Positions 38,357 through 45,599 of a DNA stretch of 45,599 nt are shown piece by piece. The notes below the pieces were generated by a model. It made no database searches and was not told the origin of the DNA. It worked only from the letters and a program-made list of their open reading frames with translations. The stretch is from Hellea sp. (GTDB taxonomy: Bacteria > Pseudomonadota > Alphaproteobacteria > Caulobacterales > Maricaulaceae): the NCBI GenBank assembly GCA_023300105.1, contig JALZWM010000065.1, forward strand, positions 1-45,599. The letters run 5' to 3'. The position numbers were made by a program, and so were the translations under genes. Position 1 is the first letter of the stretch, and the number at the start of each line of letters is the position of its first letter.

Positions 38357-40378
38357 ATGAGACTTACGCATCTATATTTAAGCGCTGCATTACTGACCGC
38401 GCTCACGGCCTGCAACAATCATACGCAAAGCCGCGCGCAAGAAAAACCGCAAGACCAAGCGATCTCTGTCAGTCATACAGACACACCATCACCTGAAATG
38501 CCATTTGTGTCAGAGCGGGTGAAATCAGAAAACGCCAGAGTCCGTAAATATCTCGACTTTTCAGATATGTCTGATTTTGAACGCGCAAAGCGCGGCTTCA
38601 TAGCAACTTTCGATGATGGGAAAGTAATTAAAGCTGATGGCTCCACCGCTTATGACTTTGGCGCCTATGACTTCCTAAAGGCCGACGCCCCTAATACCGT
38701 CAACCCAAGTTTATGGCGTCAAAGCCAACTCAATGCCATGCATGGCCTATTTAAAGTGAGCGACCACATTTACCAAGTTCGCGCCTATGATCTTTCTAAT
38801 ATCACCTTCATAGAGGGCGATAGCGGCTGGATTGTCATCGACCCTCTAATAAGCGCCCCGACAGCCGCGCGGGCAAAAGCCTTAATCGACCGCGAGCTTG
38901 GCGTAAAATCCATCAGCGCTGTTATCTTCACCCATTCTCACGTTGATCACTTCGGCGGCGTGAAGGGGTTAGTCACGCCCGAAGACATCAAGAACGGCGT
39001 TCAAATTATCGCACCAAAGGATTTCGTTTTTGAAGCCGTTAGCGAAAATATCTTAGCGGGCAATGCCATGTCGCGCCGCGCCAGCTATATGTTCGGCGGG
39101 CTCCTTCCCAAAGGCCCCGCCCATCAAGTCGGTGTTGGGTTAGGGCAAACAATTTCTAGCGGAGATATCGGTCTTTACCAGCCCACACTCGAAGTTGAGA
39201 AAACTGGTGAGACTCATGTCATTGACGGCGTAGAGATGGAGTTCATTATGGCGATGGGCGCAGAAGCGCCTTCCGAATTTATGTTCTACATGCCGGGTTT
39301 TAAAGCTTTTTGCCAAGCCGAAATTATAAACCATACGCTTCATAACATGTACACACCGCGCGGTGCCAAGGTGCGCGATGGCCGTCTCTGGAGCGGTTAC
39401 ATCGATGAAGCCGTTTATAAATATGCCAAAAAAACAGATATCTCTTTCGGGTCCCACCATTGGCCGATTTGGGGCTCTGATGAGGTGACAACGTTTTGGG
39501 AAGGCCAGCGTGATTTATACCGCTACATTCATGACCAAACCGTACGCTATGCCAATATGGGTTACACCCTGCATGAAATCCCAGAGAAGCTAAATATGCC
39601 AGATGGTATTGCCAAGCAATTTGCGAATAGAGATTATTACGGCACGTTGTCCCATAATTCGAAATCACAATACCAACTTTATTATGGATATTTTGATGGC
39701 AACCCCGCTAACCTTGACCCTCTTGCCCCGACCCCTGAAGCCAAAAAATTTATTGACTATATGGGCGGCGCAAATGCGGTTTTGAAAAAAGCGCAAGATG
39801 ATTTTGATGCAGGCGAGTTCCGTTTCGCCGCCACAGTGCTCAATAAATTAGTTTTCGCAGAGCCAAGTAATACAGCCGCCTCGAACCTGCTCGCGAAAAC
39901 CTATGACCAACTTGCCTATATGGCGGAGTCAGGCTCATGGCGGAACTTTTACCTCACAGGCGCGCAAGAACTGCGCGGCGGAGTCGCAGATTTAGCAACG
40001 ACACAAACCGCCAGTGCAGATATTGTCAAAGCTATACCTTTAAGCCTCTATTTTGATTTGCTCGCCGTGCGCCTGAACGCCGAAAAGGCGGCCAAGAAAG
40101 ACCGCGACCTAAATTTTGAAATCACAGATACAGGCCAAACCGCGCACCTCATTCTGTCTAATGGCACGCTACATCACCGCATGGGACAAACCCATCCCGA
40201 TGCGCCGACCATTAAAATAACCCGCGCAGCACTTGATCAATTAAATTTAAAAGAAAAAAAATTCGGTGAACTTGCTAAATCTGGCGACGCCTCAATCGAC
40301 GGCAACCCCCTCGCCGTCAGAGCCTTCTTTGGCTTAATTGAAGAACCAGAATTTTGGTTCGAGATTGTACGGCCATAA
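38357..40378 (+). CDS. Alkyl/aryl-sulfatase, metallo-beta-lactamase fold, lipoprotein
   Basis: SdsA1-type enzyme that releases sulfate from alkyl sulfates. 673 residues from the ATG at 38357, preceded by GAGGGAATGAC; a lipobox LTAC (Cys near 19) makes it a lipoprotein. The MBL core has FTHSHVDHFGGVKGL (metal site), AEAPSEFMFYMPGFKAFCQ, and NMYTPRGAKVRDGRLW. Then follow SFGSHHWPIWG, the helical dimerisation domain, and a C-terminal SCP2-like domain (TGQTAHLILSNGTLHHRMGQ). Length is normal for the family. It may allow use of sulfate esters from seaweed-type or surfactant sources; that is inference. Confidence 0.92.
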   Translation: MRLTHLYLSAALLTALTACNNHTQSRAQEKPQDQAISVSHTDTPSPEMPFVSERVKSENARVRKYLDFSDMSDFERAKRGFIATFDDGKVIKADGSTAYDFGAYDFLKADAPNTVNPSLWRQSQLNAMHGLFKVSDHIYQVRAYDLSNITFIEGDSGWIVIDPLISAPTAARAKALIDRELGVKSISAVIFTHSHVDHFGGVKGLVTPEDIKNGVQIIAPKDFVFEAVSENILAGNAMSRRASYMFGGLLPKGPAHQVGVGLGQTISSGDIGLYQPTLEVEKTGETHVIDGVEMEFIMAMGAEAPSEFMFYMPGFKAFCQAEIINHTLHNMYTPRGAKVRDGRLWSGYIDEAVYKYAKKTDISFGSHHWPIWGSDEVTTFWEGQRDLYRYIHDQTVRYANMGYTLHEIPEKLNMPDGIAKQFANRDYYGTLSHNSKSQYQLYYGYFDGNPANLDPLAPTPEAKKFIDYMGGANAVLKKAQDDFDAGEFRFAATVLNKLVFAEPSNTAASNLLAKTYDQLAYMAESGSWRNFYLTGAQELRGGVADLATTQTASADIVKAIPLSLYFDLLAVRLNAEKAAKKDRDLNFEITDTGQTAHLILSNGTLHHRMGQTHPDAPTIKITRAALDQLNLKEKKFGELAKSGDASIDGNPLAVRAFFGLIEEPEFWFEIVRP

Positions 40379-40515
40379 GCTTATACTGACTCACGAAGAA
40401 GCACGGAGCTATCAACTTCCCGATTAACCTAAATCGCTTAATAATTATCTACGTAGTAAACTTGGTGAAATTAAATCTAAGCTGAGCTTAACAGATTGAT
40501 ACCTAAATTTTGGGT

Positions 40516-40728
40516 TTATTCAGAGCGTATAATATTCTTAATCCGCTTTGATTGAGAAAAATTTATCGAGCCTAAAATTCTGAAGAGCCCAAAAGCTGAT
40601 ATTAAAATGAGCAGCCCCATCACGCAATCCTTTGCCATAACAGAAATCGTAGACGCCTCAAAGACAGGTAGCAAAAACCATAGAATAACAGGCGGGACAA
40701 TCACAAAAGCTATATTAACATTACGCAT
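40516..40728 (-). CDS. Small membrane protein, unknown
   Basis: 70 residues with two hydrophobic segments (IAFVIVPPVILWFLLPVF and CVMGLLILISAFGLFRIL) and a basic C-terminal tail (SQSKRIKNIIRS). It is not recognised. The two-helix pattern with a cytosolic tail and free intergenic sequence on both sides support a real gene; nothing beyond this shows its role. Confidence 0.5.
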   Translation of the reverse strand: MRNVNIAFVIVPPVILWFLLPVFEASTISVMAKDCVMGLLILISAFGLFRILGSINFSQSKRIKNIIRSE

Positions 40729-40806
40729 GAATTCTCTTTCTTCCTGTAGACTTCAACTCATGCAAATACTGTGCCTCTTTAACGCCTGTATCATCACTTA
40801 AGGACT

Positions 40807-42327
40807 TTACTCAACCAGTTCACCCGTAAGCGAATTTCGCCCTGCACCTGTTATCAACACAGGAACAATCTGTCCGACTAAGCTTTCGGGCGCCATAAAA
40901 TGCGTGCCTTGCAGATAAGGTGAGCGGCCAAAGAGTTGTCCGTCAGCGCGCGCGCCGTTTTCAACCAAAACATCAAGCGTGCGCCCAATGAGGGATTCGT
41001 TAAACGCCATTTGCTGTGTGTAGAGTAAATCTTGCAACCGCTTTAGGCGTTCGGACTTTACATCCTCTGGGACTTGGCGCGGCATAGACGCGCCGGGCGT
41101 TCCGGGACGGATTGAATACTTAAACGAAAACGAACTGGTATAACCAATTTCATCGACGCAGCGCATTGTCTGTTCAAAGTCAGCATCTGTCTCACCGGGG
41201 AAGCCTACAATAAAATCACCTGAAAGCGCCACATCAGGACGCGCGGCGCGAATTTTAGCAATCAACGTTTTATACTCTTCATAAGTATGACCGCGGTTCA
41301 TCGCGTGAAGAATTTTATTTGACCCCGCCTGTATCGGTAAATGCAGATACGGCATGAGCTTTGGTTCTTCGGCAAAAGTTTTAATTAAAGCATCATCCAT
41401 ATCGCGGGGATGTGATGTCGTGAAGCGCATACGGTCAATACCGCCAATAAGGGCTACGTGGCGGATAAGCTCGCCCAATCCCCATTCAGAATCACCCGAT
41501 GACCCTTCAGGCGCAGTATTTAGATGTGCGCCCTCCGGTGCGGGCGCATGATAAGCATCAACGTTTTGCCCAATCAGCGTAATTTCGCGCACGCCTTGCG
41601 AGGCAAGGTTGCGCGCTTCGGCGACGATTTGGTGAACAGGTCGAGAGACCTCCGCCCCGCGTGTATAAGGCACCACACAGAATGTGCAGAATTTATCACA
41701 GCCTTCTTGAATAGTTAGGTATGAAGAGAAACCTTTGGGTTGCCGCGTTTCTGGAAGGGCATCAAATTTCTCTAATGTATCAAATTCGGTCTCAAGGACA
41801 TCACCCGTGCCGCGATAAACTTTGGCAATCATCTCTGGTAGTTTATGATAAGTCTGCGGCCCCAGCACCATATCAACAATAGGGGCTCGGCGCATGATTT
41901 CTTCGCCTTCGGCTTGGGCGACGCATCCTGCAACAGCGACTTTCATATTAGGTTTGTTACGGTCTTTGTACTTACGAATACGGCCAAGTTCTGAATAGAC
42001 TTTCTCAGCGGCCTTTTCCCTAATGTGGCACGTATTGAGAATAATGAGGTCGGCATGATCGGGCGCCTCAACAGGGGCGTAACCAATCGGCGCAAGAACA
42101 TCCGCCATGCGCTCGCTATCATAGACATTCATCTGGCACCCGTAGGTCTTGATAAACACTTTTTTGGTGTTGACGTTTACCGCTATACCATCAGCCTTGG
42201 CGACGACAGGTACATTTATATCTCGGGTTTTGTTCGAGTTAACATTGCCGTCCTTGAGAGCCTGAGCCCGCTTCGGAGCGTCAACGTTACGAGACGCGTT
42301 TTCATCGCGGGGTAACAGGACGGTCAT
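40807..42327 (-). CDS. miaB: tRNA-2-methylthio-N6-dimethylallyladenosine synthase
   Basis: Radical SAM methylthiotransferase acting on A37 of tRNAs. 506 residues. The UPF0004 domain with [25 protein letters not shown] and [10 protein letters not shown] holds the three auxiliary-cluster Cys; the radical SAM CxxxCxxC is in [15 protein letters not shown]. The TRAM domain is at the end ([20 protein letters not shown]). The first 55 residues before VFIKTYGCQ are an unusual extension of charged character. The frame is open to a GTG at 42339, but GAG seven bases before the ATG at 42327 favours the shorter form. Confidence 0.95.
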
Positions 42328-42400
42328 ATATATGCTCACTTTGTGGTGAGCGGCCTATAGGCTGGAATGACGCTGTCTGCAAGTCTGTAAGGGAAGGCGC

Positions 42401-42796
42401 TTAGTAACGTCCACTTGTTGAAAACTTTCCAAGTAAAACAAAAACAGTACCGAAAACAAAAACAAGGATTAAGGCAGGCCAACTCATACGGCGCTCACCT
42501 TTTTCCACAGCCTGAAAACTTGGGCTTATTTTTGGTCCAACAGCCGAGGATATTTTTCGGCCCAGAGGCCTTGTTTTATGCTGAAGTTCGCCAACTTTAT
42601 CCTGAAAATCGTCCACTTTACCCTGAAGGTCCATTTTTTGAACCGCTTTTCGGGTGCTATCTGTACTCGTTTTGACTGTTTCGACAACGTGGTTAGCATC
42701 TCGAGTTTGTATATACTCATACCCAAGAAAAGCCGTTGCCGCTAAAACACCTATAAAGGCGGCAGTTCTTATAACTGTTATTATTGTACGAAACAT
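42401..42796 (-). CDS. Small membrane protein, HKTRPLG paralog family (member A)
   Basis: 131 residues, not recognised. It has an N-terminal helix (TAAFIGVLAATAFLGYEYIQ), a charged middle (about 40-75) that may form a coiled coil, the motif ELQHKTRPLGRKISS, and a C-terminal helix (PALILVFVFGTVFVLLG). The tail is short and basic/polar. The last 70 residues align closely with the gene at 42894-43322, so the two are tandem duplicates that have diverged in the N-terminus. They lie between fur and miaB, where Alphaproteobacteria usually have nothing. Function unknown. Confidence 0.78.
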   Translation of the reverse strand: MFRTIITVIRTAAFIGVLAATAFLGYEYIQTRDANHVVETVKTSTDSTRKAVQKMDLQGKVDDFQDKVGELQHKTRPLGRKISSAVGPKISPSFQAVEKGERRMSWPALILVFVFGTVFVLLGKFSTSGRY

Positions 42797-42893
42797 AATC
42801 TTACGCTCAATGACCTTAAAGTCATATTAAAACATAAAAATGTTAATAGATAAAAAATTAAAACCTAACGGATGATAAATTTAAAATGTCACT

Positions 42894-43322
42894 TTAGTGA
42901 CGCCCGCCCAGTCTTGATGACGGCCCAGACAGTCCCATGAGAACAAAAATGCCGCCAAAAACTAAAATCAAGAAAATAGCCGGAACACTCATACGCTGCT
43001 CGCCTTCATTAACTACTTTAAAAATAGGCTCAGTTTTAGGGCTAATTTTAGCGGATAGTTTTTGACCCAAAGGTCTTGTCTTATGCTGGAAAGCTTGGAC
43101 TTTACTGTCAATATCAGCACGTTGCCACTTTTTACGCGCAATATCAGTTTTACTGCCAACCCAGCTCATGGCGTCAGTTGTTTTTGTCTCTAACGTTTGT
43201 AGCACTGAATGAGCATTAGTATGTGCCGTTGTCTGTGCCTGTGTTGCCGCATAAGCCGCACTTCCGCAGATAAACGTAAATACAAAAACGGTTTTCAATA
43301 TCTTATTTTCAAAACGAGACAT
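42894..43322 (-). CDS. Small membrane protein, HKTRPLG paralog family (member B)
   Basis: 142 residues from ATG 43322 (AGG about eight bases before); a GTG three codons earlier is possible. A signal-peptide-like N-terminus (VFVFTFICGSAAYA) replaces the first helix of member A. Then come a Thr/Ala/Asp middle, the motif FQHKTRPLGQKLSAKISPK, VNEGEQRMS, and a C-terminal helix (PAIFLILVFGGIFVLMG), ending in GRH. Both members keep GE(R/Q)RMS-x-PA before the last helix. This suggests a periplasmic or linker domain joined to a membrane anchor. No known domain is recognised. Confidence 0.78.
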   Translation of the reverse strand: MSRFENKILKTVFVFTFICGSAAYAATQAQTTAHTNAHSVLQTLETKTTDAMSWVGSKTDIARKKWQRADIDSKVQAFQHKTRPLGQKLSAKISPKTEPIFKVVNEGEQRMSVPAIFLILVFGGIFVLMGLSGPSSRLGGRH

Positions 43323-43518
43323 AATTTGCACCTGTTAAACCACAAGGATGTCAAAGCAAAAAGAATACCAATATGCCCTATAAGGCGAAATTAAGTATGG
43401 AATAGTGTTTTAAGTGTTTTGTTGGATGAGCGCTGTTTGACGGAGTTCAGCTGATAATACCAACCCAAGTGACATAGGCACAGTTCATCAACTAGCCTTA
43501 TAAAAGATCAAATTAGGA

Positions 43519-43935
43519 TTATTTTATTTTACGTCCGTAGAGCTCTAAGCGGTGATCAACGAGCTCATAACCAAGTTTTTCGGCAATGCGCTTTTGTAGC
43601 TCTTCGATTTCATCATCGACGAATTCGATGACTTCGCCCGTAGTCACATCAATCAAATGATCATGATGTTCGTCATCCGCGGTTTCATAACGCGCACGCC
43701 CATCGCGAAAATCATGAGTTTCAATAATAGCCGCTTCTGTAAAGAGCCGCACTGTGCGGTAGACCGTGGCAAGTGAGATGTTTGAATCAATTGTAGACGC
43801 ACGCGCATAAAGTTCTTCCGCGTCAGGATGATCTTTTGCTTCTGAGAGAACTTTCGCAATAACTTTGCGTTGATCTGTCATACGCAAGCCGCGTTCCGCA
43901 CATTTTTTTTCAATCCAACTATCCATACGAATCAT
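43519..43935 (-). CDS. fur: Fur family transcriptional regulator
   Basis: 138-residue metal-responsive repressor. The winged helix starts RMTDQRKVIAKVLSEAKDHP, and the recognition helix is in NISLATVYRTVRLF. The metal and dimer region has ETADDEHHDHLIDVTTGEVI. It lacks the CxxC pair of E. coli Fur, as is usual in alphaproteobacterial Fur and Mur. Context (RimI upstream, miaB beyond) is that of the main alphaproteobacterial fur gene. Iron or manganese specificity cannot be settled. The first ATG or the Met at codon 4 may be used. Confidence 0.9.
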   Translation of the reverse strand: MIRMDSWIEKKCAERGLRMTDQRKVIAKVLSEAKDHPDAEELYARASTIDSNISLATVYRTVRLFTEAAIIETHDFRDGRARYETADDEHHDHLIDVTTGEVIEFVDDEIEELQKRIAEKLGYELVDHRLELYGRKIK

Positions 43936-43966
43936 TTACCGCGTAAGGTCTGCGCAGTCTAGTTTT

Positions 43967-44395
43967 TTAGGATAATCGTTTACGATAAGTCAGCGCTCCG
44001 ACGCGCCCCATCGCCCGTTTATAATAGGCAGGACGTTTGCCTATCGGCTCGAACCCACTGGCTTTATAAAATGCAATCGCCGCCGTATTATCTTCGGCAA
44101 CTTCAAGGAAGAGCGTATCAACACCGAGGTCGGCCAATTCAGTTTCGGCGATGTCCAAAAGTTTACGTGCGAGACCTTGCCGCCGAAGCGCAGGGTCGAT
44201 AGCGATGGTCAAGATTTCAGCTTGGTCCGCAGCGTGGCTAATAATGACAAAACCGTCTAGCGGACGTCCATGCCCAAAGCACAAATCTTTTTGGAGATGC
44301 GTGGCCATATCCTCCGCGTCCCAGCCCTTAAAAAAACTTTCGGTATGTATTTGCGCCATACGCGGCGCGTCCATCACATGAAGGCTACGGCTCAT
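43967..44395 (-). CDS. rimI: Ribosomal protein-alanine N-acetyltransferase RimI
   Basis: GNAT acetyltransferase, 142 residues. The acetyl-CoA site is RRQGLARKLLDIAE, the LEVAEDNTAAIAFYKASGFE motif is typical of RimI, and RPAYYKR lies near the end. Some RimI proteins act with TsaB neighbours; the ATG overlaps the tsaB stop by four bases (ATGA), so the genes are co-translated. The C-terminal residues YRKRLS are not conserved in the family. Confidence 0.9.
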   Translation of the reverse strand: MSRSLHVMDAPRMAQIHTESFFKGWDAEDMATHLQKDLCFGHGRPLDGFVIISHAADQAEILTIAIDPALRRQGLARKLLDIAETELADLGVDTLFLEVAEDNTAAIAFYKASGFEPIGKRPAYYKRAMGRVGALTYRKRLS

Positions 44396-45024
44396 TTGGG
44401 TGGTATACTGCCAGGGACTATACTGCCAGGGAGTTTACCGCCAGGGAGCTTTGCATCAGGGCCGCGTGAATATAACGGCTGTGCGGGATATTGGTCTGAA
44501 GACAAATCGGCGCCTAACCACGCGAGAACACGGCCATCAATAATGCCGTCTTCCACAACTATATCTGGCGAGAGTTTCGCAATGGCGCGGCGCGCCTCTT
44601 CTGCGGGCTGCGTTATGGGCGCTTGGATAAGCTTACCCTTAAAAGTCGCAGACCAACATAGTTCACTACGCCTCACATCAGCCACGCAGACAATTTTTTT
44701 TCGCCCTTCAGGATCATAATGGGCGGCTCGCACCTCAAGCGCGGAGATGCCCACAACAGGTAACTTGCGCGGCAGAGCAAAGCCTTTGGCAAAGGCCATC
44801 GCGACGCGCGTGCCTGTAAAACTCCCCGGTCCGCTACAGACAACAAGTTTATCAACATCCGTAGATATAAGCCCCGCGCAGGTTAAAACCTCTGCGGCCA
44901 TAGGCGCGAGGCGTTCGGCGTGACCGCGGCCTATATTTTCTGTTTTATAAGCCAACACCTTTGCCGTATCACAAAGCGCAACTGTGCAGTATGGGCCCGT
45001 CGTATCAAGACTTAGAATGCGCAT
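44392..45024 (-). CDS. tsaB: tRNA threonylcarbamoyladenosine synthesis protein TsaB
   Basis: Partner of TsaD in t6A synthesis. 210 residues, with the N-terminal ASKHA domain (ILSLDTTGPYCTVAL; HAERLAPMAAEVL; VVCSGPGSFTGTRVAMAFAK). The last 20 residues are a Pro/Gly/Lys tail of pentapeptide repeats (KLPGG, KLPGS, IVPGS) made by a 15-bp DNA repeat, not seen in ordinary TsaB. It starts four bases after the nfu stop and overlaps rimI by four bases. Confidence 0.9.
   Translation of the reverse strand: MRILSLDTTGPYCTVALCDTAKVLAYKTENIGRGHAERLAPMAAEVLTCAGLISTDVDKLVVCSGPGSFTGTRVAMAFAKGFALPRKLPVVGISALEVRAAHYDPEGRKKIVCVADVRRSELCWSATFKGKLIQAPITQPAEEARRAIAKLSPDIVVEDGIIDGRVLAWLGADLSSDQYPAQPLYSRGPDAKLPGGKLPGSIVPGSIPPK
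44404..44463. repeat. 15-bp tandem repeat in the 3' end of tsaB
   Basis: TATACTGCCAGGGAC (44404-44418), TATACTGCCAGGGAG (44419-44433) and TTTACCGCCAGGGAG (44434-44448) are three degenerate in-frame copies, with a fourth weak one after. They encode the Pro-Gly tail of TsaB. Confidence 0.85.
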
Positions 45025-45027
45025 GAG

Positions 45028-45599
45028 TTAAACGAATTGTTCCACGCGTGTTACTTCGGGAACATAATGTTTGAGAAGGTTCTCAATACCAGACTTCAGC
45101 GTCATCGTCGAACTTGGACAGCCCGCACAAGCGCCGCGCATCTCAAGATAAACTGCGCCGTCATCATCATCAAAATGTCTAAAGACAATATCGCCGCCAT
45201 CTTGCGCCACAGCAGGCCTGACCCGCAAATCAATGAGTTCTTTAATCTGCTCGACGATTTCAAGCGTTTCACCCTCATAGACACGTTCTTCGACATCGGC
45301 ATTTGCGATTTGATCCAAGAGCGGCACACCCCCTGCAACATAGAAATCCATAATTGCGCCAAGCACAGCAGGCTTTAAATGTTTCCAAAGCGCATCTTCA
45401 GCCTTGGTCACGGAAATATAATCGTTACCAAAAAAGACGCGCGTAACATCAGGTATCATAAATAGCATTTCAGCAAGAGGCGCCGCGCTCACATCCCCGC
45501 CGCGCTGAATATCAACAGGCGGTTGACCTTCTCCCGTGACATCTTTGCCGGGCAGGAATTTTAAAGTTGCCGGATTAGGCGTGTCTTCGGTTTGAATAA
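45028..45599 (-). CDS. NifU/Nfu family iron-sulfur scaffold protein (partial, 5' end outside window)
   Basis: Fe-S cluster carrier. The frame runs off the right edge; the first visible codons read IQTEDTPNPATLKFLPGKDV, the start of the Nfu N-terminal domain, so only one or two residues are missing (probably Met-Phe). An internal GTG at 45492 is not the start. The C-terminal NifU domain has RPAVAQDGGDI and the cluster-binding CxxC in MRGACAGCPSSTMTLKSGIE. It is the first gene of the nfu-tsaB-rimI-fur run, as in many Alphaproteobacteria. Confidence 0.93.
   Translation of the reverse strand, partial: IQTEDTPNPATLKFLPGKDVTGEGQPPVDIQRGGDVSAAPLAEMLFMIPDVTRVFFGNDYISVTKAEDALWKHLKPAVLGAIMDFYVAGGVPLLDQIANADVEERVYEGETLEIVEQIKELIDLRVRPAVAQDGGDIVFRHFDDDDGAVYLEMRGACAGCPSSTMTLKSGIENLLKHYVPEVTRVEQFV

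Follow-up and report, generated by a model that had tools for sequence, protein, structure and literature searches.

Two small genes beside miaB in Hellea sp. as putative stand-alone derivatives of a BcsB-like C-terminal tail

Introduction

The closest described systems to the two genes reported here are BcsB (PF03170), known as a cellulose synthase co-polymerase or periplasmic subunit, the BcsF-type accessory subunits, and a reduced system of BcsA plus the BcsB tail anchor. According to PMC11470070 and PMC6740014, BcsA together with only the C-terminal tail anchor of BcsB suffices for cellulose synthesis in vitro. PMC11470070 further reports up to six BcsB copies per one BcsA in E. coli, where the small single-pass subunit BcsF sits near the BcsB tail anchors. 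In the in vitro system (Omadjela et al. 2013, as cited in PMC11470070) the BcsB tail acts without its body, and the genes described here would be its natural counterpart; that system is a laboratory reduction of Bcs, whereas these are natural genes. Searching the open-access literature returned nothing relevant on stand-alone BcsB tails or on a link between DivJ and BcsB.

The whole stretch of DNA analysed, here called the window, comprises 45,599 nucleotides of a Hellea sp. contig (JALZWM010000065.1). Between fur and miaB it carries two genes, A and B, for which the most fitting label is stand-alone derivatives of a BcsB-like tail, outside BcsB as PF03170 defines it. What they resemble in the family's own BcsB-like protein is its C-terminal stalk and tail anchor, with the same implied topology, a signal-like N-terminus in B and a similar C-terminal end. 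Unlike BcsB, they lack carbohydrate-binding or flavodoxin-like domains, the proteins of this kind (mini-BcsBs) span 131 to 165 aa as compared to about 900, and the genes lie at a separate locus beside miaB with no bcsA neighbour. BcsF-type subunits are likewise small membrane proteins, and a position near BcsB tail anchors, as BcsF has in E. coli, is proposed for A and B, but neither A nor B matched the BcsF Pfam model at E ≤10 and their homology is to BcsB-like tails. Natural genes encoding essentially only the tail-anchor part of BcsB, apparently evolved at least twice, would make a separable in vivo role of the tail anchor directly testable. They also draw attention to a BcsB-like protein of prosthecate marine bacteria that is unstudied and whose gene lies near that of a DivJ-like cell-cycle kinase.

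Results

Two adjacent paralogs between fur and miaB

The initial annotation, made from the window alone, described two adjacent genes of 131 and 142 residues with similar C-terminal parts and differing N-termini. The open reading frames agreed exactly with those coordinates (Table 1), and fur, A, B and miaB are all on the same strand. A and B were 47% identical over 90 residues (BLASTP, E 4e-26) and had in common QHKTRPLG, GE-[QR]-RMS-x-PA and a C-terminal hydrophobic helix, confirming the C-terminal likeness. The N-termini did differ, as judged by hydropathy only, with B starting signal-like (...SAAYA/AT) and A starting with a hydrophobic anchor. Hydropathy also predicted one strong C-terminal transmembrane helix in every mini-BcsB member and a hydrophobic N-terminal signal or anchor in several. 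An AlphaFold model of B built from four sequences was of low confidence (mean pLDDT 57, pTM 0.23), showed only one long helix plus the transmembrane helix (H113-131), and was too poor for a fold search. Scans of positions 40000 to 45599 returned no Rfam family, and promoter and terminator predictions in the same interval were near chance level. As a separate observation, the 7-residue insert of A is missing from its ortholog in genome G048 (G048_A) and from B; its length of exactly one heptad together with its absence from G048_A suggests a coiled-coil register.

Table 1. Features of the fur-miaB interval, in window positions
Feature	Position	Strand	Basis or remark
Gene A, 131 aa, putative mini-BcsB paralog: N-terminal anchor, periplasmic helix, C-terminal TM tail (predicted)	42401..42796	-	
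Gene B, 142 aa, putative mini-BcsB paralog: signal-like N-terminus, periplasmic helix, C-terminal TM tail, SRLGGRH end (predicted)	42894..43322	-	
B signal-peptide-like N-terminus, residues 1-26	43245..43322	-	hydropathy; N-terminal match search
B motif QHKTRPLGQK, residues 79-88; counterpart of LQDKVKPVG in BcsB tails	43059..43088	-	
B C-terminal transmembrane helix, residues 113-131, homologous to BcsB-like tail anchor	42930..42986	-	hydropathy; profile comparison
B C-terminal end SGPSSRLGGRH	42897..42929	-	11/11 residues identical to G037 BcsB C-terminus
A N-terminal hydrophobic anchor, residues 5-23	42728..42784	-	hydropathy
A insert DKVGELQ, 7 residues (one heptad), ahead of HKTRPLG	42581..42601	-	alignments
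A motif QHKTRPLGRK, residues 72-81	42554..42583	-	
A C-terminal transmembrane helix, residues 104-122	42431..42487	-	hydropathy
miaB, fixed neighbour of mini-BcsB gene within genus	40807..42339	-	
fur, upstream neighbour; adjoins miaB directly in genomes without mini-BcsB	43519..43935	-	

Homology to the tail of a BcsB-like protein

Neither A nor B had a match above cut-off in Pfam, NCBIfam or PHROGs, and PF03170 itself did not match either of them at E ≤10, so A and B are not BcsB members in the sense of PF03170. When B was used as a query against 99 genomes of the same family, matches were found in 11. In genomes of the same genus these were small B-like genes, while in other genera the match often fell at the C-terminal end of reading frames of ~900-1000 aa. 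In this whole-genome search B by itself matched the C-termini of BcsBs with E values of 5e-12 to 3e-9. The long proteins with matching C-termini passed the Pfam cut-off for PF03170, including one of 877 aa encoded on contig C138 of the same genome as A and B (E 1.4e-13). The PF03170 match on that protein stops near residue 611 of 877 and the tail lies past its end, which is why the library models fail to cover the tail of A and B. The homologous tail is laid out as a helix, an LQ-x-K-x-x-P-x-G motif, a transmembrane helix and an SRLGGRH end.

The relation was evaluated further among 666 local proteins, those of the loci analysed plus the window. All matches of A and B below E 0.1 in this set were sister genes or BcsB-like proteins, with B matching the BcsB-like protein of its own genome at E 2.5e-4, and reversed and shuffled control queries gave only sporadic matches (best E 0.016). 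A profile built from A/B orthologs only matched a profile built from BcsB tails only with a probability of 99.5% (E 2.1e-22) over 99 columns. Together the local search with controls, the profile-profile match and the identical 11-residue end give good support for homology of A and B to the C-terminal ~100 residues of a BcsB-like protein of ~900 aa. The annotation had proposed an unrecognised, undescribed family; this stands insofar as no library model covers A or B, and falls insofar as the end of a larger BcsB-like protein, encoded elsewhere in this genome and in its relatives, is clearly related to them. A wholly unrelated new family was considered and is disfavoured by the profile match (E 2e-22) and by the failure of the reversed and shuffled controls. 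It is likewise very unlikely that the genes form an undescribed family whose resemblance to BcsB tails is convergent, driven by helix and transmembrane composition. The lack of any Pfam or NCBIfam match above cut-off would fit convergence, but the profile match covers a non-helical motif within its 99 columns, the C-terminus is identical over 11 residues, and the controls fail.

When 398 genomes of the order were searched with the small-protein profile, matches were confined to three genera of a single family. Seventeen of the long proteins, combined into a profile, weakly matched BcsB chains in the PDB (E 0.0025), and the A1 profile searched against the PDB found no BcsB, only generic helical proteins (apolipoprotein, vimentin). 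Any homology of this tail to the structurally studied BcsB tail anchors of E. coli or Rhodobacter is thus conjectural.

N-termini and direction of origin

To compare the other end of the proteins we used the first 32 residues as queries, those of B against about 654 local proteins. The best match was a BcsB N-terminus in 7 of 12 small proteins (A, B, G048_B, G068, G091_s, G098_s and G402_s). The match was strong for G098_s and G091_s and modest for A and B; G098_s was clearest, with BcsBs in all top five ranks. The N-termini of G048_A and of the G012, G094 and G058 genes had no recognisable BcsB likeness. In a tree of the tails, G098_s and G402_s fell in a clade with the BcsBs of their genus g9 (support 96/97), which points to at least two origins of mini-BcsBs. 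We read these data to mean that mini-BcsBs arose at least twice, each time from a duplicated bcsB that then lost its body, probably through internal deletion.

An improbable alternative is the reverse direction, in which this lineage gained its long BcsB tail when a small ancestral gene fused onto the C-terminal end. The motif is missing from the BcsB tails of other genera in the family, which could mean that the long tail was gained recently, and resolution of the tail tree is poor (11 of 18 inner branches open). A C-terminal fusion, however, does not explain why several stand-alone N-termini resemble BcsB N-termini, nor does it sit well with the nesting of G098_s and G402_s among the g9 BcsBs, and stand-alone genes occur in only two genera while the tail on BcsB occurs in three. 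Between the genome with the window (G000) and G048, A-A identity was 61% and B-B identity 53% as compared to 31-41% for A-B, so the A/B duplication predates the G000/G048 split.

Some BcsBs of these genomes have altered tails. The tails of the BcsBs of G000 and G048 are degenerate, and in G402 the BcsB tail lacks the motif, which is carried by a separate stand-alone gene. A complete cis BcsB tail plus a stand-alone gene was found in G091, G098 and G094, and a mini-BcsB is therefore not simply a replacement for the BcsB tail.

Synteny, co-occurrence and selection

The small gene adjoins or neighbours miaB in G000, G048, G058, G012, G094 and G068, and likewise in G091, which belongs to another genus. 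In G028, G040 and G078 fur directly adjoins miaB and mini-BcsB is absent. The annotation had taken the pair for an insertion in a conserved cluster, and these three genomes of the genus agree with that; elsewhere the slot between fur and miaB varies in related genomes and often holds an LpxH-like phosphoesterase gene. Recurrent tandem pairs with a conserved motif, which it named as support for a family, were also observed, with the same tandem pair in G048 and a separate tandem pair in G058. G094 has two distinct loci in which miaB accompanies a mini-BcsB gene, each on its own contig (L022, L023), perhaps reflecting mixed strains in the metagenome-assembled genome.

Within the genus, presence of the small gene followed presence of BcsB. 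With counts that depend on detection thresholds and incomplete assemblies, both genes were present in 6 genomes, one of which (G094) encodes a BcsB of 835 aa (L127), and neither was present in 3 (G028, G040 and G078, none with a PF03170 match). One further genome, G086, has BcsB, and its missing small gene is uninformative because the assembly lacks miaB. An exact test of six with both versus three with neither, excluding G086, gave 1/84 (~0.012; calculated by hand and not corrected for relatedness). The three genomes are small genomes of the genus in which mini-BcsB, the BcsB-like gene and the glycosyltransferase family 2 (GT2) gene of contig C18 are all missing; this joint loss may be general genome reduction.

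As compared to their G048 orthologs, dN/dS was 0.26 for B and 0.19 for A, and among sister genes of other genomes it was 0.06-0.12, all approximate values with dS near saturation. This purifying selection indicates that A and B are neither chance open reading frames nor decaying. Their accessory position in a variable slot could be taken to mean that they are decaying or non-coding frames left by the insertion, an explanation we regard as refuted by dN/dS values well below 1 and by the conserved synteny, with the same tandem pair in G048. The combination of frame decay and no homologs outside this genome, which the annotation held would count against a family, was not what we found: orthologs are present in other genomes and are under selection.

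The full-length bcsB-like locus and a proposed role

A and B are encoded apart from bcsB. Around the full-length bcsB-like genes, a gene for a DivJ-like histidine kinase, so named from a sub-threshold NCBIfam match (282 bits versus a cut-off of 1000), was present in 23 of 27 regions examined and mostly directly adjoining; two of the four regions without it are cut by contig ends. This recurrence was noted for loci L029-L035, L091-L110 and L127, and SufE-like, DUF1491 and MATE genes were frequent companions of the bcsB-like gene and kinase.

The reading we prefer, and hold at about even confidence, is that A and B are mini-BcsBs that act as separate tail-anchor subunits of a polysaccharide machinery, their body having been lost. 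After duplication of a bcsB-like gene, a carbohydrate-binding and flavodoxin-like body of ~700 residues would have been lost, and the parts kept would be an export signal (B) or N-terminal anchor (A), a periplasmic helical stalk, a C-terminal membrane anchor and a short cytoplasmic end. The proteins would reside in the inner membrane with the stalk in the periplasm and the tail in the cytoplasm, serve the envelope-polysaccharide machinery to which the full-length BcsB-like protein also belongs, and pack beside a synthase or beside full-length BcsB tails, supplying or supplementing the anchor, for example where the genome's own BcsB tail has degenerated. A separate subunit of this kind is favoured because BcsA with the BcsB tail anchor alone makes cellulose in vitro, and by analogy A and B could fill such a role. 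Weighing against it are the near-absence of BcsA-like GT2 genes around bcsB, the lack of a detected PilZ domain, the uneven co-distribution of the C18 GT2 with BcsB, the genomes that have a full BcsB tail as well as a stand-alone gene, the small proteins whose N-termini show no BcsB likeness, and a joint loss that may be general reduction. A more speculative and rather unlikely extension is a natural trans-acting tail anchor, with a polysaccharide co-polymerase divided between one full-length subunit and a set of mini-BcsBs without the core. These would tune the number or placement of synthase assemblies, perhaps coordinated with a DivJ-linked cell cycle in a stalked bacterium.

A different possibility, which we consider doubtful, is that stalk and anchor form a portable membrane module. 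A and B would then have inherited the BcsB tail, or have it in common with BcsB, but would now serve another envelope function, such as that of a scaffold or coiled-coil spacer, unlinked to polysaccharide export. Their place beside miaB, away from bcsB or any glycosyltransferase, the weak likeness of the helix region to generic amphipathic helices, and the three genomes in which a stand-alone copy accompanies a complete cis tail are consistent with such a module. Presence that follows BcsB within the genus argues against it, as does the retention of the motif and often of an SRLGGRH-like end.

Candidate synthase partners

No BcsA synthase gene lies beside A and B, whose neighbours are fur and miaB, and none is adjacent to full-length bcsB either. 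Across the 27 bcsB loci a BcsA-like GT2 gene was absent except in G402, where a relative of the C18 GT2 (L108:3-716, open at the region edge) lies ~6 kb from bcsB, the sole such case. The genome with the window encodes a BcsA-like GT2 on C18, with PDB matches to BcsA, and no PilZ domain was detected in that genome. The C18 GT2 was absent from the three small genomes without BcsB and also from several BcsB-bearing genomes, and it was present in many genomes without detected BcsB. This phyletic profile does not support it as an obligate or family-wide partner. Close relatives of a second GT2 (on C15) were confined to two other sampled genomes.

The BcsA-like GT2 gene was also found split at about the same codon, near GGTSN, in three genomes of different genera (L137 in G048, L138 in G083 and L139 in G029). 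The interrupting unit is ~3-4 kb long and carries an IS1595-type transposase gene, a gene for a conserved ~153-aa protein without a Pfam match, and a variable gene. The unit looks like a site-targeted element, and a search for Rfam introns was negative. The copy in the genome with the window is uninterrupted (L041:7617-9029, minus strand).
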